A stretch of DNA of 64,000 nucleotides from Candidatus Woesearchaeota archaeon (GTDB lineage Archaea; Nanobdellota; Nanobdellia; Woesearchaeales; GW2011-AR4), in NCBI GenBank assembly GCA_016180235.1, contig JACPBQ010000002.1, forward strand, positions 128,206 through 192,205, written 5' to 3'. The position numbers and the translations under genes are program-made. The notes under the pieces are model-generated. The model saw only the letters and a list, made by a program, of their open reading frames with translations. It was not told the origin of the DNA and did not search any database. Of the stretch, positions 9,346 to 60,775 are shown one piece after another; positions within the stretch are counted from its first letter, which is position 1, and the number at the start of each line of letters is the position of its first letter.

Positions 9346-10761
9346 ATGGCTACAACAGCAGACCTTATGAAGTTCGGCTTCAAGCAGGAAGAGCTTGCAG
9401 AGCAGACTCGCGGCCAGTACTCTAAAACAGGCTTCCCGGTGCCGGCAAGGCGCTACAGGCTGCATTATGAAGGCTATAACATATCAATTGAGGAGCCTTA
9501 TTTCTATATTCTGCATTACCTAAGGTACTATGCGGGCTTTCCGAGCATAGACAAGATAACAGACATATTTGCTGCAGCAGAAAACAGCGCATTTTTCGGG
9601 GCTAACCAGCAGCGATTGGGAATGCAGCAGGACAAGGTATCGCAATTCCTGGCAACAATAGGAAAAATGGTCAAGGAGCTTTTCCAGCTGGTAAGGGAAT
9701 TAAGGGTTCTGGACGAGAGGCTGAGCTACTACGTAGACTCCTTTAAACCGGAAAGCAGGAGCAGGGAGAGTGCAGAGATTACATTAAAAGGCACATGGGT
9801 TGATTTAGTCGAGCAGGGAGCTAAAAATCCGGCATCCGTTTATGGGATGGCCAGGGAAGTGCAGTTTACAACTTTGCCTGACTTGTTTTTCTCGACGCAT
9901 CCATTAAGGCAGGAAGATGTTGATGAGATTGTGGATAGGGAAAGGGGAGCATTCAACAGAAAAGTCAAGGAAGTACTGAAAAGAAAGTTAAGGACATTTT
10001 TAGCCTGGAAAGAGCACACATTTGACGAGCTGAAAAACAGGAGAGTTTTTACATTGAAATACCTCAGGCAGCATTACGAGATCATAAGGATGTACATACA
10101 CTGGGTAAAGCCATACCTAAGGAATATACAGCGTTTGCAGCTGGACCAGAGCAAGACCGAAACTCCTGACTTATTGGTGGCTTTTGAAAGCTCGATGATA
10201 GAAGTGGAATTATTGGCGCGAAAGCCCGGAACAGTCAATCAGTGCCTCCTCATAAATTATCTTTTCAGGACAAGGCCGGAGATGTCTTACAATCAGGAAT
10301 ACCAGCGCGGCCCCATACATCTTGGCAGGGTTGAGATTGACATCAGGTGCTACGGATGGACAAGCCAGGAAATAGAAAACTACAAGAAGATGCGCGAGCA
10401 GGAAGATTTCCAGCTTTTGGGAATAATAGACGGCTCTGTCAAGGCTGCAATGGAAGCCCTGGGAGACGAGCTTATGAGATACCTGAAGGAAGCCGGAGAG
10501 GACATGGGGCCAAAGCCCGCTCAGCAGGCAGAAGGGAAAAAATCATCTTTCATGAGCCCTTATTCATCTGTTTTCAAAGGCTTTTCTGAGCTGTTTGGAA
10601 AGGCCAAAACGCCAAAAAAACAGCCAAGGCCGAAAAAGCCGAGCAAGACTGATTTAATGAAGATGTCTATGGCGAGGACCGGCGCAGAGGCAGGCGCAAA
10701 GTCTTATGCCTGGACAATCTATCACCATTTCAAAAAGCATCACGGAATGCTGAACTGGTAA
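9346..10761 (+). CDS. Conserved-looking helical protein of unknown function
   Basis: 471 residues, soluble, no signal peptide. I do not recognise the family. The N-terminal ~120 residues are aromatic-rich ('EEPYFYILHYLRYYAGFPS'), the centre is long amphipathic helix with many Arg/Lys, and residues ~390-430 are a low-complexity Lys/Pro/Ala linker ('KKQPRPKKPSKTD') before a short basic C-terminus ending HHFKKHHGMLNW. The strong promoter and long intact ORF argue for a real, expressed gene. The basic linker suggests nucleic-acid or ribosome association, which is only inference. Confidence 0.6.
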   Translation: MATTADLMKFGFKQEELAEQTRGQYSKTGFPVPARRYRLHYEGYNISIEEPYFYILHYLRYYAGFPSIDKITDIFAAAENSAFFGANQQRLGMQQDKVSQFLATIGKMVKELFQLVRELRVLDERLSYYVDSFKPESRSRESAEITLKGTWVDLVEQGAKNPASVYGMAREVQFTTLPDLFFSTHPLRQEDVDEIVDRERGAFNRKVKEVLKRKLRTFLAWKEHTFDELKNRRVFTLKYLRQHYEIIRMYIHWVKPYLRNIQRLQLDQSKTETPDLLVAFESSMIEVELLARKPGTVNQCLLINYLFRTRPEMSYNQEYQRGPIHLGRVEIDIRCYGWTSQEIENYKKMREQEDFQLLGIIDGSVKAAMEALGDELMRYLKEAGEDMGPKPAQQAEGKKSSFMSPYSSVFKGFSELFGKAKTPKKQPRPKKPSKTDLMKMSMARTGAEAGAKSYAWTIYHHFKKHHGMLNW

Positions 10762-10767
10762 ATAAAA

Positions 10768-11040
10768 TAAAAAAATGCCAATACGGTTAAGAAACAAGTT
10801 AACAATAATTTGATTATGTTTAAGATGATATAAAATTAATAATTAAACGCAAATAAAAATAATTCATATCCGGCGTTTTTGCAAAAACAATGCGGGAGGG
10901 CAAAAAACGCAGGTTATTATTTTGATTTTCATGAAAATCAGAGATTTTCAGGACACGGAAAATTTTAAATTTTCTCGTGTTTCATTGTCATAATGAAATA
11001 ATGTTTGCATTAAAATATGACAAAACAAATAGTTGGTAAC
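10768..11040 (+). repeat. Dispersed spacer element, copy 1
   Basis: One of three related elements in this window. Block order: 'atgccaatacggtt', a 'tcacaa/taacaat' block, 'tttgattat', AT-rich linker, then a stem CCGGCGTTTTTGC (10870-10882) with GCAAAAAACGCAGG (10900-10913), 'ttattattttgatttt', 'taatgaaataa' and 'aacaaatagttgg'. Copy 1 has about 60 extra bases carrying two palindromes. It fills the whole spacer between the 9346 gene and the 11076 gene, both on this strand. Confidence 0.75.
10924..10980. repeat. Two palindromes inserted in spacer element copy 1
   Basis: GATTTTCATGAAAATC (10924-10939) is a perfect 16-bp palindrome, and ACACG-GAAAATTT / AAATTTTC-CGTGT (10953-10980) is a near-perfect stem-loop. 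Neither is in copies 2 and 3, so they look like a secondary insertion or expansion. Confidence 0.55.
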
Positions 11041-11075
11041 TGATTGATTAAATGCTAATAATGAGTGACTAAAAA

Positions 11076-13265
11076 ATGAAATTTACAGACGGCTATTACA
11101 GCCACCATCCAATGGTTGATTATTTCAATTCCATGGAGCCGGAGTCATATGGGATGAAGGCAGACAACAGGCCTGATGTCAACCTCGGCATAAATGACAT
11201 AGGCATGTCTGTTCCGATGGGAATCTCTGCCCAGAATGTAGCCGGAATATATTCAAAAATAAGGATGGGCGCTGGCAAATTGGAGATACAGTTCCCGGGC
11301 TATAGGGTAGGAAACCGCAACCAGCAGACTCCCGAGATGCTTGGAGAGGACCAAAGGCAGGCATTGAGGGAAATGCAGATGGCAAACGAAGTAAGGTTCA
11401 ACACTCACGCTTCCTTCGGCCTTATGGGGATGATGGGCCGCGATGAGAGGGGGAATTTTTCGACTTATGGGGCTTACCAGGATCTTTTTGAGCTAAAGCG
11501 CGCAATTGACTTTCAGGCAGACATGGGCGGTGGAAGTGTGGTCATGCATTCAGGAGAATTTGAAAGGCCGATGACTGACATATTTATTGATGATGAAACT
11601 CACAGAAGAAATTTAGCGCGCGACTCAAGCGGAAGGCTGATGATAAAGCAGGCCCATACCCAGGAATTTGATGCCAAGTTTGACTTAATGGATGCAAGAA
11701 CAAGCCAAAAAATGGAGACAGTGCAGAAGGACAGGCTGGTTTCATACCCGGTATGGAAAAGGGCAAAAGAAAACTACACTGGGCTGGATATAAATGGGAA
11801 CCGTGTTTTAATCAGAAAAGGAGATTATATCGACTATGAGAACAAGAAGATAATTGACCCATGGGATGCTACAAAAGGAAGAGTCCCGGAATACAGCGAA
11901 AAAACAGGAAGATTTGAGGTTGCAAGGAGGCATTTTGATTATTTCAAGGAAGAAGCGCAGGAATATAACGAATATCTGAAGAAAAAAAAAGGAAGAGAGC
12001 TGAATTTCTATGAGAAAATCTATCCTGAAGAGATGTTTTTAAGGGCCACGTTAGAGACGCAGGAAGGCCACGCCCGCGGATGGGCGCTGCAGTATGGTGA
12101 AAGGGTTGATAGGGAACTGAAGACCTTGGAAAAGCTGAGAAAAGCAAAGGAATTTTATCAGAAACTGGAGAAAAACATGCCGGAAGACGAAAAATGGAAG
12201 ATAATGAAGCAAGTTTCAGACTTTGGCGAAGTTACAAGCACCCTTGTGCCTTCAGAAAGCAAACTGCCTACAAAAATACTTGACGATGCAATAAAAAACC
12301 AGGAAAAGGGCCTTGAATTTGCAAGGCAGGCTTCAACCTCACAGGAGCAGCAGGCATTCGACACCCATGAAACAAAAGAGAACCTCATCACGCCTATAAA
12401 AAGGCTAGAGCAGCACGGAGTAAGGATGTATGCGGAAGCAGGGATACATGCCCTGAGGAGGACAAAGGATCCAAATAATCCTGTTGTTGTTGCCATAGAA
12501 AACCTGTTCCCTGAAAGGTTTGGAGGCCATCTTGAAGAGCTGAAATGGGTAATAAAAAAATCAAGGGAAAGGATGGTTGAGATGCTTACTTCTCCAAAAG
12601 TGCAGCTGGGGGTCAGCAGGATGCCGACGGAAATGGACGAGGAAAAACTGAACGATGCCATGACTCCGGGAAGGGAAAGTATGCTGCAGGAAAATCCTTA
12701 TTATATGGGTATGGGGAAGGAGGAAGCGGAAAAAATTGCTGCAAGGCACATAAAAGCGACTTTGGACACTGGCCATCTGAACATGTGGAAGAAGTTCTGG
12801 CAGGAAGATCCGAGGCTTACAAAAGAGCAGAACGATACAAAATTCAGGGAATGGTACCTTAAGCAAGTGGAGAGTTTGGCAAAAGAAGGAATGGTCGGAA
12901 ACGTCCACCTTGCGGATAACTATGGTTTCCAGGATGACCATTTAAGCCCCGGGCAGGGAAATGCGCCGATAAAGGAAGCTGTGGCAATTTTGAAAAAATA
13001 CGGCTATGACCGCGCCATTACAGTAGAGCCAGGAGCGGATGCAACCACAGACCTAAGCGATTTCCATGGCCTGATGAAAACATGGAGATTATTCGGCAGC
13101 AGTGTCTACGGCATGGGAACCGGCGGCGGAGGACCTCAGGTGCCGCAGAGATGGGGGGATGTGCAGTATTCTTACTTCGGCCAGAACAGGCCCCCGTATT
13201 TCGTGTTTGGCGGATATGCGCCAAGCAACGACTGGACTTTATGGACTGCGGTTCCTATGGAGTAA
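11076..13265 (+). CDS. Sugar isomerase/AP-endonuclease-2-like TIM-barrel protein with large insert
   Basis: 729 residues, cytoplasmic. Both ends match the xylose isomerase-like/AP endonuclease 2 TIM barrel: 'AGKLEIQFPGYRVG' (strand 2), 'RFNTHASFGLMG', 'FQADMGGGSVVMHSG', later 'VVVAIENLFPERFGG', 'KATLDTGHLNMW', 'MVGNVHLADNYGFQDDHLSPG' and 'DRAITVEPGAD'. These supply the E, D, H, H, E metal ligands typical of the fold. Between strand 3 and strand 5 lies an insert of about 300 residues of charged helices, making it more than twice the usual 280 residues. Activity could be sugar-phosphate isomerase or endonuclease IV-like; the insert argues for something specialised. It is preceded by spacer element copy 1. 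Confidence 0.7.
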   Translation: MKFTDGYYSHHPMVDYFNSMEPESYGMKADNRPDVNLGINDIGMSVPMGISAQNVAGIYSKIRMGAGKLEIQFPGYRVGNRNQQTPEMLGEDQRQALREMQMANEVRFNTHASFGLMGMMGRDERGNFSTYGAYQDLFELKRAIDFQADMGGGSVVMHSGEFERPMTDIFIDDETHRRNLARDSSGRLMIKQAHTQEFDAKFDLMDARTSQKMETVQKDRLVSYPVWKRAKENYTGLDINGNRVLIRKGDYIDYENKKIIDPWDATKGRVPEYSEKTGRFEVARRHFDYFKEEAQEYNEYLKKKKGRELNFYEKIYPEEMFLRATLETQEGHARGWALQYGERVDRELKTLEKLRKAKEFYQKLEKNMPEDEKWKIMKQVSDFGEVTSTLVPSESKLPTKILDDAIKNQEKGLEFARQASTSQEQQAFDTHETKENLITPIKRLEQHGVRMYAEAGIHALRRTKDPNNPVVVAIENLFPERFGGHLEELKWVIKKSRERMVEMLTSPKVQLGVSRMPTEMDEEKLNDAMTPGRESMLQENPYYMGMGKEEAEKIAARHIKATLDTGHLNMWKKFWQEDPRLTKEQNDTKFREWYLKQVESLAKEGMVGNVHLADNYGFQDDHLSPGQGNAPIKEAVAILKKYGYDRAITVEPGADATTDLSDFHGLMKTWRLFGSSVYGMGTGGGGPQVPQRWGDVQYSYFGQNRPPYFVFGGYAPSNDWTLWTAVPME

Positions 13266-14600: not shown

Positions 14601-15191
14601 CTATTTTAGCTTCTGCATGAGCCTTTTTAGGCTGCTGCTGGCCTCTATCGCGGCTGCAAGCGCCCCATATTCCGCAAGCTTGTAAGAGTCAGCATAAGCT
14701 ACTATGACCAAATCGGTTTTTGAGAGATTAAAATTAGCCTCTATACCCTTAAAATCGTATTGATTGGCATCTTCCAGTTCATAAAGCTTAAGATTTCCGT
14801 CATAATCGAGCACCAAAGCGCCGTCAGCTCCCGCCTTTACAGCAGTATCCCTGATCTCATAAGCCTTTCGCAGGCTTTTTTTGTTTTTAATGTGCTTGAT
14901 ATGGACTGCTATTCCCTTTTTACGGGAAAAAATAGAAGATAAGTCTGCTTTTGATGTCTTTATCTTTTTATTTGCCTCTATAAGCAGCTCTTTTCCTTTT
15001 TGGCTGAGATAATGCCCTTTTTTGTCCGATATTAGCAGCTTGCTTCCCTTTAATATATCAAGGATGCTCCTTACAGTGCCTTCGCCAAGCTCTAAGCTCT
15101 CAGATAGCGCAGACCTGCTTACAGGCTTTTCTATCCTGAACAGGCATCTCAAGACATCCAGCTTTGTAAAGTTTGGAAGGTTTCCAACCAT
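14601..15191 (-). CDS. Winged-helix regulator, DUF4443-like
   Basis: 196 residues from ATG 15191 (the ORF track begins four codons earlier). Residues ~8-75 form a winged helix: 'KLDVLRCLFRIEKPVSRSAL', then the recognition segment 'SLELGEGTVRSILDILKGS', then a wing 'GHYLSQKGKELL'. The C-terminal half ('AVHIKHIKNKKSLRKAYEIRD', 'AGADGALVLDYDGNLKLYELE') is an alpha/beta domain like that of archaeal DUF4443 proteins. Likely a transcription regulator of unknown ligand. It is transcribed away from the cruciform repeat copy L, which lies in its promoter region. Confidence 0.6.
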   Translation of the reverse strand: MVGNLPNFTKLDVLRCLFRIEKPVSRSALSESLELGEGTVRSILDILKGSKLLISDKKGHYLSQKGKELLIEANKKIKTSKADLSSIFSRKKGIAVHIKHIKNKKSLRKAYEIRDTAVKAGADGALVLDYDGNLKLYELEDANQYDFKGIEANFNLSKTDLVIVAYADSYKLAEYGALAAAIEASSSLKRLMQKLK

Positions 15192-15246
15192 GAAATGCAG
15201 CAACTTAAGTGCATATTTAAGTTTTGCCCCTTATAAAACAACAAAA

Positions 15247-15397
15247 TGTCAAAAACCACAATTCATATAATGGTGGCATGTTTCTTAGCGAAAAGCTAAG
15301 AAGTGGTTTTTGAGCATGCTCGGAAATATACCATAATTATTTATATTATAGTATTACTTCCATCAGTTATAAACTAAGGGTATATTTCCGACATATA
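15247..15397 (-). repeat. Cruciform-forming repeat, copy L (inverted relative to copy R)
   Basis: On the minus strand: GTCGGAAATATACC, about 41 bp, GGTATATTTCCGA, the palindrome GAGCATGCTC, then AAAAACCAC with an inner hairpin CTTAGC/GCTAAG and closing GTGGTTTTTGACA. It matches copy R (16928-17034) almost base for base over about 100 bp, in the opposite orientation. The 41-bp spacer is the main difference. It lies between the divergent DUF4443-like and methyltransferase genes. Confidence 0.85.
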
Positions 15398-15425
15398 AAA
15401 ACTTCCTTCAAATAGGGAAAAAACA

Positions 15426-15959
15426 ATGAAGCCGTTAGCATTCCAGCAGATAAAAAAAGAGTATGATGCTTTCTATAATGAGCTGCTAAGCCAGGGACAG
15501 CTCCCTCTGAGGTCCACAGGCAAAGGCTTTTGGGGTCATGTTCCAGCTGAAGATATTTATGAGGCATTTAAGCAGCTGAATTTGCAGGATCATAAAACAT
15601 TCATTGACATAGGGAGCGGTGATGGAAAAGTAGTTTTGATAGCTTCCTTGTTCTGCAAAAGAGCAGTTGGCATTGAGATAGATGACGAGCTGTTCAGGAA
15701 ATCCCTGGATATGCAAAAAAGCCTCGGCATAGGCAATGCGGCATTTTTTAATGATGATTTCTACAGCCATAGCGTCTCAGGATTTGATGCTGTATTCGTA
15801 TATCCTGACGAGCCTATGCACCGGAATTTGGAAAAAAAGCTTCTTAACGAGCTTACTGGGAAGCTGATACATTGCGGGCATCATTTTCATCCTGAAAACC
15901 TTAGGAAGCACAAGGACGTAATAGTGAATGGCACCCTGATGACAGTCTATACTAAGTAA
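15426..15959 (+). CDS. Class I SAM-dependent methyltransferase
   Basis: 177 residues. Motif I is 'FIDIGSGDGKVVLIASLF' (about 59-76) and the acidic end of strand 2 is 'VGIEIDDELF'. The usual catalytic signature after strand 4 is replaced by 'VFVYPDEP', so the substrate cannot be read off; it is not NPPF/DPPY. The N-terminal helix 'FWGHVPAEDIYEAFKQL' resembles small archaeal methyltransferases related to the lysine/Dot1-like group. It converges with the DUF483-like gene (8-bp overlap), and the pair is bracketed by repeat copies L and R. Confidence 0.7.
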   Translation: MKPLAFQQIKKEYDAFYNELLSQGQLPLRSTGKGFWGHVPAEDIYEAFKQLNLQDHKTFIDIGSGDGKVVLIASLFCKRAVGIEIDDELFRKSLDMQKSLGIGNAAFFNDDFYSHSVSGFDAVFVYPDEPMHRNLEKKLLNELTGKLIHCGHHFHPENLRKHKDVIVNGTLMTVYTK

Positions 15960-16794
15960 ATATCATAAATCCGGAATCATCTAAAATCTTATTTCCGATT
16001 TTCACTTTGTTTTTGCTTATTATTTCAATTTTTTTATTTTGGCTTAATTGGTTAAATAATTCATTTTTTATTGTTGGCATTATTTCATCGTATTCTAAAA
16101 TATTGTCCTTTAATTTATAATCCTTAAAAGCAAAAATCCCGTCATTCTCGGTGTAAAGGACAGCGCTTTTAAGCATATTCTCAAATTTGCCCGCTAATTC
16201 CGGGGAATATTTTTTTATTGTTCTCAGGTTCTCTTTGGCTATATTTACCGATTCTTTGCAGTTGAAATCATGCGGAAAATGGCTCAATAAAGTTATGTCA
16301 AAATACCTCATTGCATGGTTCGTATAGAATGGGAATTCAAAGCCATTAGAATTATTCAGGGTAGGGAGCATGTAATCATTTTGAATTTTTTCCTGTTTTT
16401 TCCTGTTTTTTGTAAAAAAATCAATGCAGCATTCCGGGTAGCCAAGTATTTCTCCAACAGCCCGGTCATCATTTTTGCTCTCTAGTATTTTGAGAAAGTT
16501 TGCTTTGTTTTTATCCCTGGATATATATAAATGATATAGCCCGGGATTTGCATTATTAATTGAAACTCTCTTGACTATATTGGCATAATTTCCTTTCCCC
16601 CGGTCAGCAGTTTTTACGACTTTAAAATCCGATATTTCCAAAAAAAGGTTATTTTTGCTGCAAAAATCTTTGATTTTGGCTAATTCATCTTGATTGGCAT
16701 CCAGCCTTACTGCCATCTTTAAATTATTAAGAAGATAAAAAATCTCCAATGATCGTGTATAATTAGCGAATATTTTCAATAATTCTTTCACCAT
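15952..16794 (-). CDS. DUF483-like protein
   Basis: 280 residues, soluble. The key motif is 'GEILGYPECCIDFFTKN' (about 117-133), the conserved 'GYPxCC..F' of archaeal DUF483 proteins, whose function is unknown; the two adjacent Cys may bind metal. The N-terminal 'ANYTRSLEIFYLLNNLK' and the mid-protein 'YHLYISRDKNKAN' also fit. It overlaps the methyltransferase tail-to-tail by 8 bp, and its promoter region holds a perfect hairpin and repeat copy R. Confidence 0.6.
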   Translation of the reverse strand: MVKELLKIFANYTRSLEIFYLLNNLKMAVRLDANQDELAKIKDFCSKNNLFLEISDFKVVKTADRGKGNYANIVKRVSINNANPGLYHLYISRDKNKANFLKILESKNDDRAVGEILGYPECCIDFFTKNRKKQEKIQNDYMLPTLNNSNGFEFPFYTNHAMRYFDITLLSHFPHDFNCKESVNIAKENLRTIKKYSPELAGKFENMLKSAVLYTENDGIFAFKDYKLKDNILEYDEIMPTIKNELFNQLSQNKKIEIISKNKVKIGNKILDDSGFMIFT

Positions 16795-16860
16795 AAAAGC
16801 TGATAAATAAGCCTATAATTAAAATCCTTTTGTTTATCCTGAAAGTAAGAGAAGGATATA

Positions 16861-16898
16861 GAAAATTCAACCAAAAGCATAAATCATGTTGAATTTTC
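16861..16898. other. Perfect 11-bp inverted repeat in the DUF483/MNT divergent region
   Basis: GAAAATTCAAC (16861-16871) pairs with GTTGAATTTTC (16888-16898) across a 16-nt loop. It lies between the DUF483-like start codon and repeat copy R, so it could be a leader hairpin or an operator for the minus-strand gene. Confidence 0.5.
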
Positions 16899-16927
16899 TT
16901 TATCATTTAAAGATAGTCATAAAGGTT

Positions 16928-17034
16928 TATATGTCGGAAATATACCATAGTATATTTCCGAGCATGCTCAAAAACCACTTCTTAGCGTTTAGCTAAGAAA
17001 TATGTCACCATTCTATGAATGGTGGTTTTTGACA
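16928..17034 (+). repeat. Cruciform-forming repeat, copy R
   Basis: Compact form of the element: stem 1 TCGGAAATATAC/GTATATTTCCGA with a 5-nt loop, the palindrome GAGCATGCTC, then an AAAAACCA/TGGTTTTT outer stem that encloses two hairpins, TTCTTAGC/GCTAAGAA and CCATTC/GAATGG. The whole would fold as a three-way junction in single-stranded DNA or RNA. Copy L is the inverted counterpart 1.5 kb away. Confidence 0.85.
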
Positions 17035-17060
17035 AATAAAATTACGGAAACTAAGATATA

Positions 17061-17858
17061 ATGAAATTTGACATCCCTAGGAAGGAGCATCCGAATATTG
17101 AGAAGTATGAGAGGCATGTTGTTGAGACAGCCCACAGGTTTGCAAACGAAATCTATAAGGAGATGGGTGCCCTTATAAGGGCAGTTGTTATTTTCGGCTC
17201 TGCTGCAAGGAAAACCACAACTTCAAAAAGCGATATAGATGTTCTTGTCATTCTCGATGACCTTACAATAAGCCTGAGTCCTGAGGTTGTTGAGGCTTAC
17301 AGGGTCATAGTCAACAGGTCCATTGTAAAAGTGTCCACAAACCTGCACATAACTACCTTGAGGTTCACTTCATTCTGGGAATATATAAGGAATGGCGACC
17401 CAATAGGCATCAACATATTAAGGGACGGTGTTGCCTTGATTGACTCCGGATTCTTTGAGCCTTTGCAGGCTTTGTTGAAAAAAGGAAAGATAAGGCCTAC
17501 ATCAGAAAGCATCTGGACATATTACATAAGGGCTCCTAACACCTTGCATAACAGCAAATGGCATTTGCTGCAGGCAACAATTGACCTTTACTGGGGCGTC
17601 ATTGATGCTGCCCACGCAGCCTTGATGAAGCACGGTGAAATACCTCCCACTCCGGAGCATGTTGCAGACTTATTGGAGCAGAAGCTTGTCAGGAAAGGGC
17701 TCCTTGAGCAGAAATATGTAACAACAATGAGGCATTTCTACAAGCTCATGAAGATGATTACTCACAGGGAGGTTAAAGAGATAAAAGGGGAAGAGTATGA
17801 CCGCTATTACAAGCACGCAGATGAATTTGTAAGAAGGATGAGGGAGTTTATTGAGTAG
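17061..17858 (+). CDS. Nucleotidyltransferase-HEPN-like protein
   Basis: 265 residues. Residues ~45-68 carry the Pol-beta nucleotidyltransferase signature 'VVIFGSAARKTTTSKSDIDV' (GS...DxD), the minimal nucleotidyltransferase (MNT) fold. The C-terminal half is helical and contains 'VIDAAHAALMKHGEIPPTPEH', which resembles HEPN domains. In many archaea MNT and HEPN are separate genes forming a toxin-antitoxin pair in which MNT AMPylates HEPN; here both seem to be in one chain. Repeat copy R occupies its promoter region. A role in nucleotide transfer to protein or RNA is inference. Confidence 0.7.
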   Translation: MKFDIPRKEHPNIEKYERHVVETAHRFANEIYKEMGALIRAVVIFGSAARKTTTSKSDIDVLVILDDLTISLSPEVVEAYRVIVNRSIVKVSTNLHITTLRFTSFWEYIRNGDPIGINILRDGVALIDSGFFEPLQALLKKGKIRPTSESIWTYYIRAPNTLHNSKWHLLQATIDLYWGVIDAAHAALMKHGEIPPTPEHVADLLEQKLVRKGLLEQKYVTTMRHFYKLMKMITHREVKEIKGEEYDRYYKHADEFVRRMREFIE

Positions 17859-36663: not shown

Positions 36664-37806
36664 TTAAATCAGCTCAAATAAGCTCTGGTTAATCAAGCTT
36701 TCATAGAAAGCAACATCAGTTATGTTCAATTTGCTTAATTGCTTTAGGCTCTCGCAGCTCTGCTTCAGATACTGGTTAGTTACCTTATCGCACACAGTAT
36801 AATCTTTCTTGTCAATGACAAAATTCATGTAGCAGGAATCTTTCCTGCTGTCCTTGCTTATTTCCTCGCATACCTCGCTCCTTCCGACTATTTTTGCAAC
36901 ATTGCTCAGGCAGACATCCTTTGTCCTTTCATCAGCTATTTTGGCGCAGTAAGCCCTGTCGCCTAAAACCTCGCCGATTTTATTGAAGCACAGGTCTCTT
37001 GAAGTCTGCAATTCCAGCTGATTGCACAATCTTTCCGCTTCCTGCCTGTTTTGCCCTGCTATCTGCTCGACTTTCTCCAGGGTTTCAAAAGTCGTAATTG
37101 CAGAATTTCCTGGAGTTGTTTCTTCATCTGGCACAGGTTCTTCTCCAGTTTCTTCAGGAGTTTCGGCAACTGGCTCTTCTGTAATTTCTTCTTCTATTGG
37201 CTCATCACCAACCGACCCTTCAGCAACCTGCCCCACTATCTTTACAGGCAATGTTGCAACAGCCCTCTGGCCATTATAAGTCGCTATAGCCCTTAAGACA
37301 TAATCCCCAGCCGCAGCATCAGGAGGAACTTGCATGTTAATCTGATTTGAGCCTTTTGTTTCTATGGCCCTTGTCTCTTCCTTGAACGTAACAACATCAT
37401 TTGTCTTTATATTGATCAATTCATACTTCAGGCTGACATCATACCTCCTTGCAGAGCCTAAATTATCAAGTTCGGAAATAAACGTTATATCTTCACCGCT
37501 ATTAACCGTTGTCTTTACGCTTTCCAGGTTTAAATCAAGCAGTGTTCCAGGCGCTTTGCTGCCGGCAAAATTAAAAAATACGAAAGAGACAGCCACTATC
37601 CCGATAAAAATTGCTGCAATTCCTATTAAGGCAGCGGGAGAAAAATGTATTATATGCCTTACTTCAGGGCTGGAAATATACCTTATAGCTTCATCAATAT
37701 CTGCAGGAGAATAGCCATATTTTAAAAGATAATTCCTTATTGTCTGTACATCAAAGCCCCTTTTTATCTGCTCTTGTATGTAATCAACAAGCTTCGTATT
37801 TGCCAT
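36664..37806 (-). CDS. TM protein with N-terminal helical module and C-terminal Cys repeats
   Basis: 380 residues. A cytoplasmic N-terminal module ('LVDYIQEQIKRGFDVQTIRN', 'YGYSPADIDEAIRYI') resembles a small helical domain common in DPANN membrane proteins. One membrane helix follows (about 55-80), then a beta-sandwich of the CARDB type ('DLNLESVKTTVNSGEDI'), an acidic Thr/Glu/Pro linker, and a set of ~25-residue helical repeats each with two Cys ('CNQLELQTSRDLCFNKI', 'CAKIADERTKDVCLSNV', 'CEEISKDSRKDSCYMNF'). These look like disulphide-linked helical hairpins. A TATA box 27 bp upstream (37826-37845) predicts a leaderless mRNA. Unknown function. Confidence 0.65.
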   Translation of the reverse strand: MANTKLVDYIQEQIKRGFDVQTIRNYLLKYGYSPADIDEAIRYISSPEVRHIIHFSPAALIGIAAIFIGIVAVSFVFFNFAGSKAPGTLLDLNLESVKTTVNSGEDITFISELDNLGSARRYDVSLKYELINIKTNDVVTFKEETRAIETKGSNQINMQVPPDAAAGDYVLRAIATYNGQRAVATLPVKIVGQVAEGSVGDEPIEEEITEEPVAETPEETGEEPVPDEETTPGNSAITTFETLEKVEQIAGQNRQEAERLCNQLELQTSRDLCFNKIGEVLGDRAYCAKIADERTKDVCLSNVAKIVGRSEVCEEISKDSRKDSCYMNFVIDKKDYTVCDKVTNQYLKQSCESLKQLSKLNITDVAFYESLINQSLFELI

Positions 37807-37825
37807 TGAATCTTTCTTTTTCTTA

Positions 37826-37845
37826 TTATATATTTAAATGTTGTT
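37826..37845 (-). promoter_or_regulatory. TATA box of the 380-aa gene
   Basis: On the minus strand, caacatttaaatatata, with a centre about 27 bp from ATG 37806. Confidence 0.6.
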
Positions 37846-38322
37846 TTAATTTTGCTAAAACTCAATACTATTTTAATATACCTTATTTATACTTTAGTTA
37901 TACTTAATTTTGTATAAATAATACTCTATAAATACTTAAAATATACTTTAATTATACTATTTTTTGTATAAATTATTAAAATAAAGCTGATTTATAATAA
38001 AAATATTTATATACTAGTATACAAATTATATCCTAATTATGACAAAATATAGGATAAAATCAGCATAGATAAAGGCTTTAATGACTAAAATAAATTAAAA
38101 TTTCCAATTTCATCAAAAAAGCCAAAAACAAAGAAAAACTGATTTCCATTATAATAGGCGAGGTCGAGCGTGTGCGTGAGATGCGAGTGAGCAAGTAGTA
38201 AAGCTATAAGTGATATACTCAATTATTCACTCGCTCACAATTCACTGACAGCGAGACCGAGCACTATATTTTGTGAGCGAAGCGAACAGGCTAAAAATTT
38301 TAAAAAATTAATTTAATCAAAA
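37846..38322. other. Intergenic region upstream of locus B
   Basis: About 480 bp without a gene. The first 200 bp are AT-rich with repeated ttatact and taaata words and a strong TATA candidate (aatatttatatactagtatac, about 38003-38025). The second part holds the CGAG-rich repeat described separately. Confidence 0.5.
38157..38295. repeat. CGAG-rich repeat, long copy
   Basis: Begins gcgaggtcgagcgtgtg and ends gacagcgagaccgagcacta followed by gtgagcgaagcgaac. An inner inverted repeat gcgagtg / cactcgc spans about 44 bp. The two ends match the short copy at 40659-40700. GC-rich words stand out against the AT-rich surroundings. Confidence 0.6.
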
Positions 38323-38487
38323 ATGCCAACCATCCAGATAAGAATTACGGTTTCTAAAGAAATTAATGACTTATTGGAAAAAGCAGCCAAAAAGCTTGGC
38401 AAGAAAAAGTCAATGCTGGCCAGGGAATTAATGGAACAAAAATTGTATGACCTAAATTTAATACAAAAGGAGCTGAAGGAAATCTAA
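38323..38487 (+). CDS. Ribbon-helix-helix (CopG/Arc-like) regulator leading locus B
   Basis: 54 residues, too short for the ORF track. 'TIQIRITVSKEINDLLEKAAK' and 'KKSMLARELMEQKLYDL' give the strand-helix-helix pattern of RHH DNA-binding proteins, which bind operators as dimers. Its stop is one base before the ATG of the pilin-like protein, so it is co-transcribed and could autoregulate locus B. Confidence 0.75.
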   Translation: MPTIQIRITVSKEINDLLEKAAKKLGKKKSMLARELMEQKLYDLNLIQKELKEI

Positions 38488-38488
38488 G

Positions 38489-40609
38489 ATGGGAACAAAG
38501 GCGCAGGTTTCAATATTCATCATTTTTGGGATCGTAATTTTAGCGGCAGCTGCAGTTGTGTTTTACATAAATACATCCGGGCAGAAAGAGGAGATTGCTC
38601 CCGGAGTTTTTATTTCAACTCAGGAAATACCAACTCAGCTTGACCCTGTAAGCAGTTTTGTCACGCAATGCCTTGATGATGTGGCTGTCAGCGGCCTGAA
38701 GCTGATAGGCGAGCATGGAGGCTATATAGACACCAACAGCCCTGAACTCACAAAGCAGAATTTCAAAATAAGCGATGACCCGACTGAAAGCGATGCTGTT
38801 GCTTTTGCACCAGGAAGCGAATTTAAAATCCCGTACTGGTGGTATCTGGAAAGCAATAATAATTGCGAGGGGACATGCAGGTTTTCAAGCAAAAGACCGG
38901 AATTAAGGGATGATGATGGCTCAATAGAAAAGCAACTCAACAGGTATATAGAAAAAAATATGCCGGAGTGCATAAATAATTTTGAAAGCTTAACCGGGCA
39001 GGGATTTGAAATCAGCGGATTAAGCGCAATAAAAGCCAATGCAAAAGTTGCGGAAAGCGATGTTGTCGTAGTCATGGACTATAGATTAAGCGCAAAAAAG
39101 GAAGGCATTACATCCACTTTGGACCAGTTCTTTGTGAGGGTTCCGGTTGACCTGGAAAAAATCTACAATCTTGCCACAGAAATAACAAACTTGCAGCAGA
39201 AATACCGCTTCCTCGAAAGGCAGACTATGAACCTTGTGTCTTCTTTCTCGTCAGTCGATAGCAATAAGCTGCCTCCGGTTACAGACATGAGGTTTGAGTT
39301 CGGAAGCACTACAAGCTGGAGGAAATCGGATGTAAAAAACAGTATCATGCAGGTACTGGCAAGCTACATCCCCATGTTCCAGGTAGATGGCACAAGGAAC
39401 TTCAATCGCGACTTTTACTCTTCGGAATTAAAGCAGAGGCTTTATGACAGCATGATTGTTCCCGTTGCAAATCAGGAATACAACAATTTGGATGTGACAT
39501 TCAATTATCTTGACTTCTGGCCGATATATTTCAGCATTAATTGCAACGGGGAAATTTGCCAGCCAGAATCAGCTTCCTCGAACCTGCTGGCCCTTATAGG
39601 GCTGCAAAGGTATGATTTTGCATACGATGTTTCATTTCCGGCATTAGTCGGGGTTTTTGACCAGGACGCATTGAACGGACAGGGCTATAATTTCAATTTT
39701 TTCCTGGAAGCCAATGTAAGGAACAACCGCGAGCTGGAGTCAGAGTTTGTGCCTTTGCAGACAGCCGATATTCCTGCCGCATCTTTCCTCTGCGATTTAA
39801 GCAACAGGAACAGCGCTGAAGTGACAATCAAGGTGATTGATGCAGTTGAAGCAAAGCCGCTGGATGGTGTAAGCGTTACTTTAGGAGTTGCAGGAGAAAA
39901 CTGCTACATCGGAAGCACAAACGAGAATGGCACTTTGGTTGCAAAATTTCCAGCCGGGACAGCAGGCGCACTCATTAGCTTATTGAAGCCTGACTATATC
40001 TCAAAATCGCAGTTGTTTGACGCGAGCCCTGACAGGAAACTTTCTCTGGAAGCGAAGCTTGACCCTGTCAAAGAAAAGAAGATAACAATAAAGAAAAAGC
40101 TGCTCGAAAAAACAAGCAGAGGCTGGGAGTTTACAAACAAAATTTCTGACTTAAAGCCGGATGAGGAGGCATTTGTGACGCTGACAAGATTAAGCCCGCT
40201 TACAGAGGAGGATTTTGATGCTGTTGCAAGCATAAAGGGGCCCAACGAGGAGCAGATCAGGCTGGCTCCGGGAAAATATGAGGTTAATATAAACACTTTC
40301 CTGAGGGAAAACATAAGGATACCTGAAAAGAAAGTGAGGAAAAAAACCGGTTTGTTCTCGGAAGAGGAATTTACCATCCCCGGATTTGAGTTTAATGCAA
40401 ACAATCCTTATCCTTCCGGAGGCTTAAGGATGAATGTTACGATAACAGAAGAGGACCTAAAGAAAGACACCATCACATTTTTTGCGGTAAGCCCGGCTTT
40501 GGAGAATGTTCCTGAGCAGCAAAGGTCAATTGATGATTTGAATCAGGCGGCAAATATTGACGAGTATTCAAGAGTTTTTGCAGCATTGTTGGCTCCAGTA
40601 TTCCAATAA
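38489..40609 (+). CDS. GQ/AQ-anchored (class III signal-like) surface protein, locus B
   Basis: 706 residues. The N-terminus 'GTKAQVSIFIIFGIVILAAA' is a variant of the pilin-type anchor, with A-Q instead of G-Q. Shared motifs with loci A and C: 'VSSFVTQCLDDVAVSGLKLI', 'GGYIDTN', 'IPYWWYLES', 'LNRYIEKNMPECINNFES', 'SNKLPPVTDM'. The C-terminal ~250 residues are predicted beta-rich and include a carboxypeptidase-regulatory-like segment ('VEAKPLDGVSVTLG', 'ENCYIGSTNENGTLVAKF'). It is one base downstream of the RHH gene. Confidence 0.76.
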   Translation: MGTKAQVSIFIIFGIVILAAAAVVFYINTSGQKEEIAPGVFISTQEIPTQLDPVSSFVTQCLDDVAVSGLKLIGEHGGYIDTNSPELTKQNFKISDDPTESDAVAFAPGSEFKIPYWWYLESNNNCEGTCRFSSKRPELRDDDGSIEKQLNRYIEKNMPECINNFESLTGQGFEISGLSAIKANAKVAESDVVVVMDYRLSAKKEGITSTLDQFFVRVPVDLEKIYNLATEITNLQQKYRFLERQTMNLVSSFSSVDSNKLPPVTDMRFEFGSTTSWRKSDVKNSIMQVLASYIPMFQVDGTRNFNRDFYSSELKQRLYDSMIVPVANQEYNNLDVTFNYLDFWPIYFSINCNGEICQPESASSNLLALIGLQRYDFAYDVSFPALVGVFDQDALNGQGYNFNFFLEANVRNNRELESEFVPLQTADIPAASFLCDLSNRNSAEVTIKVIDAVEAKPLDGVSVTLGVAGENCYIGSTNENGTLVAKFPAGTAGALISLLKPDYISKSQLFDASPDRKLSLEAKLDPVKEKKITIKKKLLEKTSRGWEFTNKISDLKPDEEAFVTLTRLSPLTEEDFDAVASIKGPNEEQIRLAPGKYEVNINTFLRENIRIPEKKVRKKTGLFSEEEFTIPGFEFNANNPYPSGGLRMNVTITEEDLKKDTITFFAVSPALENVPEQQRSIDDLNQAANIDEYSRVFAALLAPVFQ

Positions 40610-40658
40610 CAAAATCACGGAAACAAAAAAACAATGAAAAAAATTCCAACAATAAATC

Positions 40659-40700
40659 GCGAGGCGAGCGATGTGTAGAGACAGCGAGCCGAGCACTAAA
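40659..40700. repeat. CGAG-rich repeat, short copy
   Basis: gcgaggcgagcgatgtg followed by gacagcgagccgagcacta, the two ends of the long copy joined with the centre missing. It lies between the first and second genes of locus B. Confidence 0.6.
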
Positions 40701-40762
40701 ATTGCGGAGAATTTTGAAATCAGACAAAAAAGTTTCAATAATAAAAAACACTAAAAAATAAA

Positions 40763-43700
40763 ATGATTAAAATGGCCGGAAATCACAAGCAAAAAATTGC
40801 AGTTTTAATGGTCTTATTAGTTATTATGCTGCCTGTTTATTCTTCTCTGGCATTTGCCGACCTGTCGAAGATAGAGGCAAGGGGAAAGGATAATGTAAAC
40901 AACTACATAAGGGAAAGTGATTTCATAACATTCAAGGCTACTGCAACAGTTCCCGGAGACACTGCAATAACCGCAAGCCAGGTGCTTTTGGGCTCTAACC
41001 TGCAGTTTGACAGCTGCAAGGCGGGAATAGACGGCTTCGACTGCACATTAAGGTTCCCTGGAAACGGGACGACGTTGTTTGATGCAAAAGCAATCCCGTA
41101 CACAATAACCTTAAAAAATGATGCAGGAAATGTTGTGCAGACAAAAACAGACAGCATTTTCGTCGATAACCTTCCTCCGCAGATAACTTCTTTCACTGTC
41201 GACCAGGCCCTTATAAGCTCGGGCATCGTGCGGTTCAGCTTTGATGTTTTGGATAATGCCTGCGCCGCCTCAAGCTGCGCCGGAAAATGCTCCGGAATTA
41301 AAAGTGTGGAGCTCTCTGACACCAAAAGCAGCTACAAGGACACCATCACTTTCAACACGGATTCGTGCACAGTCTCCAGGACTTTTGAAACATCTGCATT
41401 GCCATTCTCAGAAGGCCAGCATGTTATACTGGCAAAGGCATTTGACAGGTTTGACCAAGTATCAACAGCAGCATCAGCAACATTTCAATTTGACAAAAGC
41501 GCCCCTTTCATCGACTTGAACACATTAAGGGTTGTTGATGGCCTGGATATAGACTTAAGCTCTTTTGGAGCTGCTCCTGTGCCGGTAACGGTAAAGATTG
41601 ACATAAAGGATACCGATCTTAACAAAAATACTGTGTTTGCTGATTTAAGCGAGCTTAATAAAAACGCCAACCTTGGGAATGTACAGGCTTCCTGCGGGGA
41701 AACTCAAAACAGCATAACGGCATGCTCATGGAATATTGCTCTTGCTCCTGACGGTCCCGGACTAAAGAAAGTTACAATACTTGCTTCCGATATTTCCGGA
41801 AATAATGCAAAGACCGAAATAACAAAAAGTTTTGGATTGGATAGTGCAGGGCCTGTTGTCCTTTCTTTGGCCAGTGCACAGGTTGTGGATGGCCAGAACT
41901 TTGCTAAATTAAGCAATAATACCTTTGTTGCAACTTTGAGGGATGATGCTGGGGTAAAGGCTTCTGACATAAAGCTGCATGCGGATACTGTTGTTAAGGA
42001 AGCAGATTCGTGCTCCAAAGCAGTCGATATATGGCAATGCACCTGGAGCAATATCAATTTCCTGAATCCGGGAAAAATAAAAGTATCAATAGATACTGAT
42101 TCAAAAGACAGGCTTGGCAACCTAGTTACAGAGAAATTCGAGAAAGAAGTTATTGTTGATTCCATAAAGCCAAAATTAGTCCAGATTGTTGTAAAAGGCA
42201 TAGGCGGAAGCCAGGAAGCTCTTGAAGAGTTTATAACAACTGGAGACAAGCTGCAGGTCCAGGCAGTCATTGAGGATGATAGTCTGCAGAAAGCTTCTGC
42301 TGATTTCTCCAGGTTTATATTCAATGCAAGGGATGTGAATGCGGATACTTGCACAAAAACCGGAGCAAAAACATTTGTATGCTCATGGACAACATCATCT
42401 ATAGATATAGAGAGTTTTATTGATGATTTCATAAGGCTTCAGTTTACCGATATTGCGGGCAATACTCTGGAAGCCAAGGAGCCTCTAAAGGTCCTTGGGG
42501 TTACAGGAGGCGAGACCCCTGACTTCTGGCAAAGCTCGGTCAGATGCTCTCCGTCTTTGCTTGATAGGGAAACGCTGCCATTGATAAGCCAAAGGGCATT
42601 TTGCCTGGTTTCCCTAACTCCAAAGTCATTGGCAGGCAGCGCATTTGAAGATATAGAACCGGTAAGCGCAACACTTGGGGAATGCAGTGGCGATATGAGC
42701 TTTGTTGATTCTGTCAAGCTGGAAAACAACCAGTTCAGCAAGGAGCCATTGCTCAGGATAAATTTCAAAAGGCAGGATGCAAGGGTTGACAAGATAGATC
42801 TTCTTTGCCCTGTTGACATAATATCCAGGAAAGGCAATAATATCGTTACAACTCCGGAAAAAGAGAATGTAGACATTAATTTCCAGCTCTACAACCAGCC
42901 ATTGGGAGAAGTCTCTGCTAACGTACAGAAGAAGATTGATGATGCAGTTGAGGATTCCGAAGGCATTTTGGATTATGTTGCCTGGATGAAAACTGTTTTC
43001 TTTTATGGGGAAAGGCTATGTAATGTTGGGAATATCGTTGTAAATATTGTCGCTTTATATAAGGCAGTAGGCATATTTTGGGCAGATTTTGATCTGTTAA
43101 CTACAGGAACCCCTGCAAATGCAGCAGCCAAAGCTGAAAGGATATCCTGGGACACTTTGACTGAAGAAGCAAGGCAGGAAACTCTCGGAAAATTTCCATT
43201 AATCACAAAAGCATGCAACCTTGTCAACTGTAAATCCGTTGTAGATAAGAATGCAATAACTTTCGATTTTGAAGGTCCTGAATCTATTTTAGGGAAATGG
43301 AGGCAGGGAGGAAAAGACATACTAGGAACCTTAGATGTTGGCGGCATTGTAAGCAAATATGTCGGTGAAAAAGGAAAAGAGTCAGATCCAACCAGGTTCA
43401 TGAATCCAAAAGACAGCATAGTGGTTGCATCTTTGACTGCATGCATTCCCGGCATTATCTACGGCCTGGACAAATACAGGCAAATTCAATGCATGTATGC
43501 TGATTGCTTGCAAACAGGAGTTGGCAAGCAGGGATTGCCTGTGTTTGCATGCGAGGACCAGAAGAGCTATGCAACCTGCAAATATGTTGTTGGGGAAGTA
43601 TTCAAAGTAATACCAATAACAGCGGCATTTGATTATTACGCAAATCTGATAAAATCAACTTTAGCCAATCCGTTCAAGATATTGGGTGCAGGAATAGCAG

Positions 43701-47538: not shown

Positions 47539-47694
47539 ATGAGATATACAAAAAAGGTAATCAAAACCTCTGGAGGCCTGGTAGTAAGGGTTCCAGCAGA
47601 TATTGTAAAGCTCCTTAATTTGACAGATAAAGACTATGTTGAGATTGATTTGACAAAAATAGACCTCAAAGAATTAAACAAAAAATCAAAATAA
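47539..47694 (+). CDS. AbrB-like small regulator leading locus C
   Basis: 51 residues, too short for the ORF track. 'YTKKVIKTSGGLVVRVPADI' and 'LNLTDKDYVEIDL' give the AbrB hairpin pattern, close in length and layout to the 7192 protein. It is followed by spacer element copy 2 and then the locus C pilin-like gene, so locus C, like locus B, is preceded by a small DNA-binding-type protein. Confidence 0.68.
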   Translation: MRYTKKVIKTSGGLVVRVPADIVKLLNLTDKDYVEIDLTKIDLKELNKKSK

Positions 47695-47915
47695 AAAAAT
47701 GCCAGTACGGTTCACAAACAGCTCACAATTATTGGGTTATGATAAAAGGTGATTCAAAATTAAAAATACAAAATAAAAAAAATCATTCCCGGCGTTTTTG
47801 CCTTAAATTAGCCATAATAGCAAAAACGCAGGCTATGAATTATTGTTTTCAATGCCCTAATGAAATAAAGCATGCATGTAGAAATGAGCTAGCAAATAAT
47901 TGTGAAAATTACCTA
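47695..47915 (+). repeat. Dispersed spacer element, copy 2
   Basis: Starts with 'atgccagtacggttcacaaa', almost identical to copy 1 ('atgccaatacggttaagaaa'). The core stem is CCGGCGTTTTTGC (47789-47801) with GCAAAAACGCAGG (47820-47832), then 'taatgaaataaag' and 'caaataattgtg'. It fills the spacer between the AbrB-like gene stop and the start of the locus C pilin-like gene, same strand as both. Confidence 0.78.
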
Positions 47916-47938
47916 AGATAAATTAATTGAAAAATAAA

Positions 47939-49816
47939 ATGTCCAAAAAAAGAGGTCAGGCAACTATTTTTATGGTAATGGCGATAATCATATTGCTTCT
48001 TGGATCTTTTTTCTTCTTTGCCCAAAGGGCTTCTCTGGAAAAAACCGAATTGATAAGCCCTGAAACAGCGCCTGTAAAAAGCTTCATAGACACGTGCATA
48101 ACAGATGTTGCGAGGCAGGGAATAACAATTTTAGGATTGAATGGGGGATATATAAATTTCCCGGATGAGATAGAAAGAAGCCCAAGGAGCTACCTGCAGC
48201 TTGGCCCCGTAAGCAGCATAAAAAACCCATACTGGTGGTATGACGGCATTGAAAGCGTCCCGTCAGAAAGCTTTATTGCAGGCCAGATAGAGGGCTATAT
48301 TGCCTCAAACCTTGACAGCTGCATAAGCGGCTTTACAGCCTTTAACCAGCTTGATTTAAAGCAAAAAGGAAAGCTTGAGGTAAAGGTAACGCTTAACGAG
48401 AATGATGTGACTGTAGATGTGAATTATCCCCTGGAGCTTGCAAACAAGCTTAACAGCACCACAATAATGCTGGAAAATTTTAAGGAAACCCTGCCAATCA
48501 GGCTGAAGAAGGCCTATGAGACGGCAAAAGACATCTATGAGTCTGAAAAAAGGAGTTTTTTCCTGGAGTTCAAGACAACAGACCTTATATCCATGGATGA
48601 GAGCATACCCACAACTGGCATAGAAACATCCTGCAGGGAGAAAACATGGCGCGTTGACCGGGTGCAGGAAAAGCTGAAGAGGCTCCTCAATGTAAACCTG
48701 CCTTATATCAACATAGTTAATTCTGACTTTAATGAAAATGCCTATGTGCCAAACCCATTCGGGGAAGACACCTATAAGGACTCTTACTATGAGAAGCACT
48801 ATAAGTGGCAGGTATCGGATAAGGATTATGCTGGTTTGAAGGTTTCATTCGCCTACGAGGAAAGCTGGCCAATGCAGTTTAACGCAAGGCCGAGCAGCAA
48901 TGGCATAATGAAATCAAATGCCCAGAAAAGCCAGGGCTTCCTCGATTTCTTCTGCCTGCATATATGGCACTTTACCTATGATGCGGTATATCCTGTAAGG
49001 ATTACCATAACAGACATTGCTCCTGAATCCGAGCCCTACCAGTTTAACTTTGCATTCAAGGTAAGCGTTGACCACAATCAGCCAAGGAGGGAAAATTTTG
49101 CATCGACATTATTCGAGCAGCCGGATTTAGGCAATCAGGAAGAATACTGCAACGATGTTGTAAATGACATTACAGTATACACCGTGGAAAACACAACAGT
49201 ACAGAAGGATGTGGCGCATGTCAACCTCACATTCGTCTGCGGGGTATTTAGCTGCAATATGGGGGAAACAGACTGGCTCAGCTTTGGCGCTGCAGCAGGC
49301 CTTACCAAAGCATTCCCTTACTGTGTAAACGGGATCCTTAGAGGCAGCAGGGAGGGGTTTGAGGATGGCCAGATGTTCATGCGCACAGAAACTCCGGGTA
49401 CATACATCCTTCACCTTAAGCCCGTAAAGGAATTCCAGTATTATGATATCGTTAAGCATGACTTTGACAATCCCATTGCAGAAAGCGGATTGAGGGAAAA
49501 TGAGAGAATATCAATAACAATAAAATCCCTGCAGGATAATTTTGAATCTTTTGGGGTTTATCCCATTGAAAGGGATTTCCCGATAAGGCTGCTCAATGAT
49601 AACCAGGAATATGAAGTGACGATCTACCTGTCAGACGAAGACAGCATCATTGGCGGCTACAAGGGAATATGGAAAGTTTCCCCTGAGCAGGTGGCAAGCG
49701 CAAAAAAAATAAGATTCCACGTCCTGGAAAAGCAAGGAAGCGAAGATGAAGCAGCGTTATTTGTTGCAGGGCTTGATTCATACTCCAAAAAAGTTCCGCA
49801 GCCGGAGCTGGTATAG
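47939..49816 (+). CDS. GQ-anchored (class III signal-like) surface protein, locus C
   Basis: 625 residues from ATG 47939; the TTG four codons upstream in the ORF track is less likely. The anchor is 'MSKKRGQATIFMVMAIIILL'. Shared motifs: 'VKSFIDTCITDVARQGITIL', 'GGYINFP', 'KNPYWWYDG', 'IEGYIASNLDSCISGFTAF'. Unlike A and B it lacks a clear 'LPP' segment. The middle contains Trp/Tyr-rich stretches and the C-terminal ~200 residues a beta-domain with Cys ('FVCGVFSCNMGETDW', 'KAFPYCVNGILRG'). The ATG lies about 24 nt downstream of spacer element copy 2. Confidence 0.75.
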   Translation: MSKKRGQATIFMVMAIIILLLGSFFFFAQRASLEKTELISPETAPVKSFIDTCITDVARQGITILGLNGGYINFPDEIERSPRSYLQLGPVSSIKNPYWWYDGIESVPSESFIAGQIEGYIASNLDSCISGFTAFNQLDLKQKGKLEVKVTLNENDVTVDVNYPLELANKLNSTTIMLENFKETLPIRLKKAYETAKDIYESEKRSFFLEFKTTDLISMDESIPTTGIETSCREKTWRVDRVQEKLKRLLNVNLPYINIVNSDFNENAYVPNPFGEDTYKDSYYEKHYKWQVSDKDYAGLKVSFAYEESWPMQFNARPSSNGIMKSNAQKSQGFLDFFCLHIWHFTYDAVYPVRITITDIAPESEPYQFNFAFKVSVDHNQPRRENFASTLFEQPDLGNQEEYCNDVVNDITVYTVENTTVQKDVAHVNLTFVCGVFSCNMGETDWLSFGAAAGLTKAFPYCVNGILRGSREGFEDGQMFMRTETPGTYILHLKPVKEFQYYDIVKHDFDNPIAESGLRENERISITIKSLQDNFESFGVYPIERDFPIRLLNDNQEYEVTIYLSDEDSIIGGYKGIWKVSPEQVASAKKIRFHVLEKQGSEDEAALFVAGLDSYSKKVPQPELV

Positions 49817-60532: not shown

Positions 60533-60551
60533 TTTCAGTAAATTTTGGTTT

Positions 60552-60769
60552 TATCCAATGCCAACAATTATTTGTTAATTCGTTTTTTGATTTCACTCTT
60601 TATCTCATTGTGCACTAAAATCAAAATAATAATTACCTGCGTTTTTGTTTTCAGTAGTTGTATAGCAAAAACGCCGGCTAAGATTTTTTGAATTTTTATT
60701 GCCTTTTTTTATAATTTGCAATTAATATTTATCTTAATCAAATAGTTGTGAATTCAGTTGTGAGTTTTA
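60552..60769 (-). repeat. Dispersed spacer element, copy 3
   Basis: On the minus strand: 'actcacaactgaattcacaac', 'tatttgattaagat', the core stem CCGGCGTTTTTGC (60665-60677) with ACAAAAACGCAGG (60636-60648), 'taattattattttgatttta', 'caatgagataaag' and 'acaaataattgttgg'. It fills the spacer between the end of trmI and the start of the glyoxalase-II-like gene, same strand as both. Confidence 0.75.
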
Positions 60770-60775
60770 TTGTTT

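Follow-up and report, generated by a model that had tools for sequence, protein, structure and literature searches.

A modular non-coding repeat in sense orientation before housekeeping genes of Woesearchaeota, with conserved addresses and exchanged occupants

Three copies of a modular element in a woesearchaeal genome

The stretch of DNA analysed here (the window; 64,000 nucleotides, G000:C5:128206-192205) lies within a 1.04-Mb metagenome-assembled genome (G000), and a window protein has its relatives in MAGs of Candidatus Woesearchaeota and Nanoarchaeota, with the highest identity, 89%, in isolate NC_groundwater_302_Ag_B-0.1um_38_13. It contains three copies of a non-coding element that share a left module, a hairpin and a right module, each filling the spacer between the stop of one gene and the start of the next on the same strand, as the earlier note had described.

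Copy 1 (10762-11060, plus strand) extends from just past the stop of a 471-aa ORF (9346-10761) to just short of the start, at 11076, of a gene encoding a 729-aa protein with a C-terminal xylose-isomerase-like TIM barrel (11076-13265, plus strand; Pfam PF01261). Its left module (TGCCAATACGGTTAAGAAACAAGTTAACAATAATTTGATTATG, 10776-10819) has 40/46 identities to the family consensus and includes the left inverted motif (10798-10812); the hairpin (10870-10913) consists of CCGGCGTTTTTGC (10870-10882), a loop and GCAAAAAACGCAGG (10900-10913), and the right module (10974-11041; E 2.3e-9 with the right-module model R2 described below) carries the right motif AACAAATAGTTGG (11024-11036). Hairpin-core model R1 and R2 together match this copy at G000:C5:139052-139145 and 139179-139246. 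Copy 2 (47695-47938, plus strand) runs from a stop codon (47692-47694) to the best start of the next ORF, the ATG at 47939, and comprises the left inverted motif GCTCACAATTATTGG (47721-47735), a hairpin (47789-47832) made of CCGGCGTTTTTGC (47789-47801), an 18-nt loop and GCAAAAACGCAGG (47820-47832), and a right module (47835-47918; R2 match E 1.0e-12) with the motif AGCAAATAATTGTGAAA (47891-47907); the gene that it leads (47939-49816, plus strand) belongs to no Pfam family. Copy 3 (60533-60775, minus strand) spans the interval from the stop of a 262-aa ORF to the start (60532) of a metallo-beta-lactamase superfamily hydrolase gene (59900-60532, minus strand; Pfam PF00753), with its hairpin at 60636-60677 (CCGGCGTTTTTGC at 60665-60677, a loop and ACAAAAACGCAGG at 60636-60648) and its right module at 60548-60634 (R2 match E 1.1e-14; motif AACAAATAATTGTT around 60564-60576).

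The asymmetry of the stem, 5' CCGG against 3' CAGG, is exact in all three copies, and the 3' arm ends in CGCAGG in each. Within the window, mismatch-free CCGGCGTTTTTGC is restricted to three positions, 10870, 47789 and 60665 (minus strand), all of them in the elements, while up to three mismatches give 41 matches against 15 expected. The right motif CAAATARTTG is likewise confined to the elements in the window, and its interpretation as a general leader motif of the genome was rejected.

Only copy 1 has an additional palindromic insert (10924-10985, plus strand), which is near-identical to that of copy g26b (L205) at a non-orthologous gene of G001. Palindromic repeats of this second kind (units like CGAAAATC..GATTTTCGGTGTCCTGnAAATC..GATTTCCATGA) are nested in several leader elements (window 10924-10985, g26b, L195, L199 and L200).

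A lineage-restricted family defined by its right module

The repeat is not limited to the three copies first noticed, since about 31 are present in G000. The survey combined model searches of genomes with selected genome stretches. A profile search of 99 genomes with R1 recovered about 14 loci in G000, and a similar number in its congener G001; G017 and G008 gave weaker loci, and the relatives beyond these four gave none. With R2, a sequence-only model of the right module for which copies were counted at E<1e-6 (excluding weak matches at E 0.01-0.5 in many genomes), about 31 copies were identified in G000 and 16 in G001, along with copies in G013, G015, G017 and G020, which belong to one other genus, and one good match each in G006 and G002. 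Other genera of the woesearchaeal family have fewer copies than G000 and its congener. Model matches as strong as E 1e-16, together with the excess of near matches to CCGGCGTTTTTGC, reject a chance origin. Among Rfam covariance models, none matched the window at gathering score and none matched ten element loci at E<=1, and a limited search of the open-access literature returned no account of such a repeat family in Woesearchaeota.

The left module (AATGCCAATAAGGTTCACAAACAAGTTCACAATTATTTGATTATG) follows directly after the upstream stop in many copies. The hairpin has a stem of the GCGTTTTTGC type and a loop of 17-19 nt (consensus yTTAAnAAAGCATGAag) that is recognisable across genera, and within the genus the 3' CAGG is nearly constant and the 5' side variable (CCGG, CCGAG, TCGG). 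Some copies are hairpinless, with CCCGGG, CCGGG or CCGGCAGG in its place, and in others GCGTTTTTGC is replaced by other stems such as GAAATTTTTC, or by different palindromes. What all these forms have in common is the right module (about 85 nt), in which TTTTTCAATGCC is followed by GATAAA or GATATTAAAAGTGAAAT and then by AATGACAAAACAAATAGTTGTGAACATAAGATAAAA, and which ends roughly 10-60 nt short of the start codon. The defining feature of the family is therefore the right module beside the gene start, rather than the asymmetric stem. The earlier note had taken the constant mismatch as the sign of a functional RNA or a recombination site; the mismatch itself holds in the three window copies, but the argument carries little weight, given a hairpin that varies and can be missing across the family.

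Inverted motifs (GTTCACAATTATTTG / CAAATAATTGTGAAC) are present in roughly half of the copies, some way in from the very ends of the element, about 170-190 nt apart and with a mean of 11/15 pairs. The left sequence AATGCCAATAA, also present in related spacers lacking the hairpin, may characterise these leaders more widely. At orthologous junctions (L106, L118, L233 and other spacers of Woesearchaeota), long A-rich spacers devoid of the hairpin element contain repeats of CAATAAAA and, after the stop, GCCAATAA; they may represent a general leader type in the woesearchaeal family.

Strict sense placement upstream of genes

The earlier note had regarded numerous additional copies, randomly oriented or within genes, as the mark of a mobile element. 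The pattern observed differs from this: the additional copies are numerous, but 73 of the 74 with a callable downstream gene (76 copies in total) are sense to that gene, and none lies inside a gene. Genes were called by a simple codon-score method rather than a full gene finder, and two seemingly antisense copies are gene-calling errors (the gene at g11 is S7, and j56 has a small sense ORF), leaving as sole exception m8, from a fragmented MAG. The junctions in G000 are codirectional (28) or divergent (4) and never convergent, against 6/47 convergent junctions in the window background; sense against antisense gives p 7e-9, and the absence of convergent junctions taken alone gives p 0.013.

Many copies occupy operon junctions (S12-S7, RpoA''-L30e, L10-P1, Nop5-fibrillarin, S24e-S27ae). 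The genes led by elements in G000 include ribosomal ones (P1, L10, S7, L30e, S27a and a KOW-domain ribosomal protein), transcription-related ones (Spt5, a TFB zinc ribbon, an Rpb1-type RNA polymerase and the termination factor FttA) and others (KH/KRR1, fibrillarin, a DRG GTPase, OapC, Sec61beta, DnaK, Lgt and PdxT), listed here as instances rather than as enriched functional classes. By eye, the sequence just upstream of the element leading Sec61beta (G000:C9, about 76500-77000; L192) is similar to archaeal RNase P RNA.

Addresses persist while their occupants are exchanged

G000 and G001 have 11 addresses in common (hypergeometric chance about 2e-14, assuming 1100 gene starts). Addresses are also shared across genera whose proteins are 60-80% identical, namely the OapC junction (G000, G001, G013, G017), the TIM-barrel gene led by copy 1 (G000, with orthologs in G001, G017 and G020), FttA (G000, G006, G013) and the KOW-domain ribosomal gene (G000, G013). 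The gene led by copy 2 has an element before its ortholog in G001 (g37), and a gene resembling it carries one in G002 (k2), while no element precedes the orthologs of the copy 3-led gene in G001, G002 and G003.

Presence and absence at orthologous sites are encountered at the pyrDK, spt5, w3, dnaK and S24e junctions. The pyrD-pyrK junction provides a clean empty site: the 241-bp spacer of G001 corresponds to one of about 4 bp in G000, and in G003 the two genes overlap. The element is absent from G001 at the w3 and dnaK junctions, and at secE-spt5 it is present in G000 and G017 and missing in G001.

Orthologous occupants resemble each other no more than permuted ones do, be it over full spacers (0.401 versus 0.387, p 0.18), right modules (0.60 versus 0.58, p 0.10) or right modules across genera (0.528 versus 0.520), on a scale where adjacent orthologous genes reach 0.59-0.75. 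Since addresses are shared and yet their orthologous occupants are no likelier to be alike, addresses persist while occupants are exchanged between sites. Part of this unlikeness could arise if all copies had diverged to saturation around one functional consensus. However, the insert of copy 1, almost unchanged in g26b at a different gene, and the subfamilies common to non-orthologous sites point to copying over saturation. The repeats form a real, lineage-restricted family of the small modular interspersed type, unusually strict in its polarity towards gene starts and exchanging its occupants at conserved addresses.

Stem maintenance and probable transcription

In a set of 47 hairpins, anchored on nothing but their T and A runs, the two arms agree in run length (p<0.0005, permutation), and the first outer pair is Watson-Crick in 45/47 (24.7 expected by permutation) and the second in 33 (16.7 expected); the hairpin stem is therefore maintained. 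Covariation, for which the earlier note had proposed to look, is present in the stem but strictly Watson-Crick, and so does not by itself prove RNA: the three outer pairs hold 2 G-U against 6 A-C cells, and without a G-U excess there is no sign of selection on a sense-strand RNA. The covariation could stem from DNA-level palindrome correction or from the copying of whole hairpin subtypes. Overall folding of copies 2 and 3 is only weakly better than that of shuffles (z -1.3 and -1.7), and an outer RNA helix between the inverted ends was rejected, as cis pairing is no better than permuted (p 0.31). The conservation shown for the right module is one of sequence rather than of structure. The asymmetry of the conserved hairpin loop suggests recognition of one strand, and the main argument for action at the RNA level is that the leaders lie strictly in sense.

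At secE-spt5, a promoter-like box (AAAGCTTTTAAATAG) identical in G000, G001 and G017 lies upstream of the element; the spt5 start codon follows about 55 nt past the box in G001, and in G000 and G017 the element sits between the two. Taken as the promoter, this box would make the element the 5' UTR of spt5, where it is probably transcribed as an mRNA leader. The layout at L40e (n5b) is similar. Nearly all right modules lack the canonical TATA (TTTAWATA). Most element spacers are also free of a canonical TATA, as expected inside operons. A conserved upstream mini-ORF (ATGACAAAACAAATAGTTGTGAACATAAGATAA) was rejected by eye, its ATG being unconserved and early stops occurring in many copies.

A proposed self-spreading leader and its alternatives

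The reading that we prefer, and to which we give about an even chance, is that of a dispersed BOX-like modular non-coding repeat spread by copying and kept in sense as a leader to housekeeping genes, with mRNA as its probable level of action. The repeat (left module, optional hairpin, right module) would be transcribed as a 5' or intercistronic leader and retained in sense only. Its right module, the constant and probably working part, would influence translation of the downstream message, its processing or its stability, and the hairpin with its conserved loop would be an optional, exchangeable insert. Copies would move among the gene starts of a partly conserved set, either by transposition or by gene conversion via the shared end modules, leading to inherited addresses and swapped occupants. 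The earlier note had left the choice between a cis-regulatory RNA, an sRNA and a mobile element. Sense placement of nearly all copies fits a transcribed cis leader and disfavours a free sRNA, whereas empty sites and exchange agree with mobility; each of the two readings, cis element and mobile element, is partly right, and they are compatible. It is possible, and we propose it tentatively, that these repeats constitute a new class of archaeal element, exchangeable mRNA-leader cassettes with fixed housekeeping addresses and swapped sequences, i.e., a concerted, self-spreading post-transcriptional leader.

Mobility without any function for the host, i.e., a parasitic MITE with degenerate inverted ends that inserts with fixed polarity at gene starts and otherwise decays, is a somewhat doubtful alternative. 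It would account for the AT-rich, non-coding, dispersed copies with inverted end motifs, for the empty sites, for subfamilies spanning non-orthologous sites and for inserts within elements. However, sense-only upstream placement, the lack of convergent copies and the conservation of addresses across genera are unexpected of a parasite, and the BOX, RUP and SPRITE repeats of pneumococcus behave in the opposite way, being in excess between convergent genes (PMC3049150). No clear target duplication is visible at the pyrD-pyrK and secE-spt5 empty sites, where the element ends are not exactly defined, and Y1_Tnp, the sole transposase family sought, yielded no transposase with matching ends, its own being unrelated.

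We consider it unlikely that the element is a terminator-promoter/operator cassette acting at the DNA level, in which the upstream transcript would terminate at the hairpin and T tract, and the downstream gene would have its promoter or a regulator site in the right module. Such a cassette agrees with the succession of A-rich sequence, stem and T-rich flank with a conserved T5-T6 run, with the GATAAA or GATATTAAA block that precedes a conserved motif by a constant distance, with the same motif inverted on the left as a possible paired protein site, and with ends whose lack of covariation suits DNA motifs; a promoter is also needed near the four divergent copies. Against it stand the rarity of TTTAWATA in right modules, a T run that begins 10-15 nt past the stem, unlike that of an intrinsic terminator, and hairpinless copies holding the same addresses, while at spt5 a terminator downstream of the conserved TATA-like box would silence the gene.

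That the element is an ordinary REP-type palindrome, mobilised by a Y1 transposase of the REP-associated kind, is very improbable: the short imperfect hairpin with its fixed mismatch, extragenic and oriented, and the one Y1_Tnp gene of G000 recall such a system, but unrelated hairpins flank that gene, which led us to reject a Y1 transposase/RAYT origin, the conserved unit is about 200 bp, hairpinless copies exist, and G017 (a MAG 67% complete) has elements and no Y1_Tnp match. The IS200-like Y1 transposase of G000 (G000:C9:194521-194868; L243) is probably near full length and has its own right-end hairpin (CCCCGCACTTTAGTGCGGGG). Viral carriers were rejected, exact-pattern scans of viral contigs giving none, as were integron attC sites, considered since copies follow stop codons: inspection by eye shows no GTTRRRY core, and the copies are scattered rather than arrayed.

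Relation to known repeats and leaders

In architecture and dispersal, the family resembles BOX of Streptococcus pneumoniae (boxA-boxB-boxC), in which constant end modules likewise surround an optional or changed middle hairpin and copies are dispersed and extragenic. BOX elements are co-transcribed with genes, and half of their insertions are conserved between strains; they are not tied to gene starts, and their over-representation between convergent genes has been read as a sign of parasitism (PMC3049150). In contrast, the woesearchaeal family is archaeal, unrelated by the tests made, upstream and sense in 73/74 copies and never convergent; it shares with BOX the end modules around a variable hairpin, and not the convergent excess without fixed orientation. 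ERIC and Correia/NEMIS resemble it in length (about 100-200 bp), AT-richness and inverted end motifs; they lie in transcribed intergenic regions, of which the sense intercistronic location of the present copies is reminiscent (PMC2229807, PMC2649163), and the orientation of ERIC matters for its effects on mRNA stability (PMC2229807), but here no TA duplication or known transposase ends were found, orientation is stricter and addresses are conserved across genera. REP/REPINs, reported from archaea too (PMC12306157), have a similarly imperfect extragenic hairpin with fixed asymmetry, as opposed to the long conserved flanks, dispensable hairpin and absence of a RAYT locus flanked by the repeat seen here. 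Riboswitch-like cis leaders are also sense, 5' of many genes and positionally conserved, but the present family has no conserved whole-leader fold and no Rfam match, and its downstream genes belong to more than one pathway.

Small interspersed repeats are usually viewed as tolerated parasites that accumulate where they are least harmful. The woesearchaeal repeats reverse this pattern, being placed in sense, before core genes and inside operons of a reduced archaeal genome. To our knowledge, gene regulation in DPANN archaea is almost unexplored; if the leader role holds true, a repeat family would have been turned into a shared regulatory leader in these archaea, and the family supplies natural presence/absence pairs suited to testing.

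Other repeats occur in spacers of the same genomes. Two divergent spacers of the window (15191-15426 and 16794-17061) have an inverted repeat block in common (TCGGAAATATACCATA ... TATGGTATATTTCCGACATATAAA, with AGCATGCTCAAAAACCAC and GGTGGTTTTTGAC), and a stretch like GGTGGTTTTTGAC is also present upstream of copy n5c (L201). GC-rich palindromic stretches of the GCGAGGTCGAGCGTG...CGAGACCGAGC type are found in AT-rich spacers of the window (37806-38489 and 40609-40763), and one of similar type lies in the RpoA''-L30e spacer of G001 (L115).
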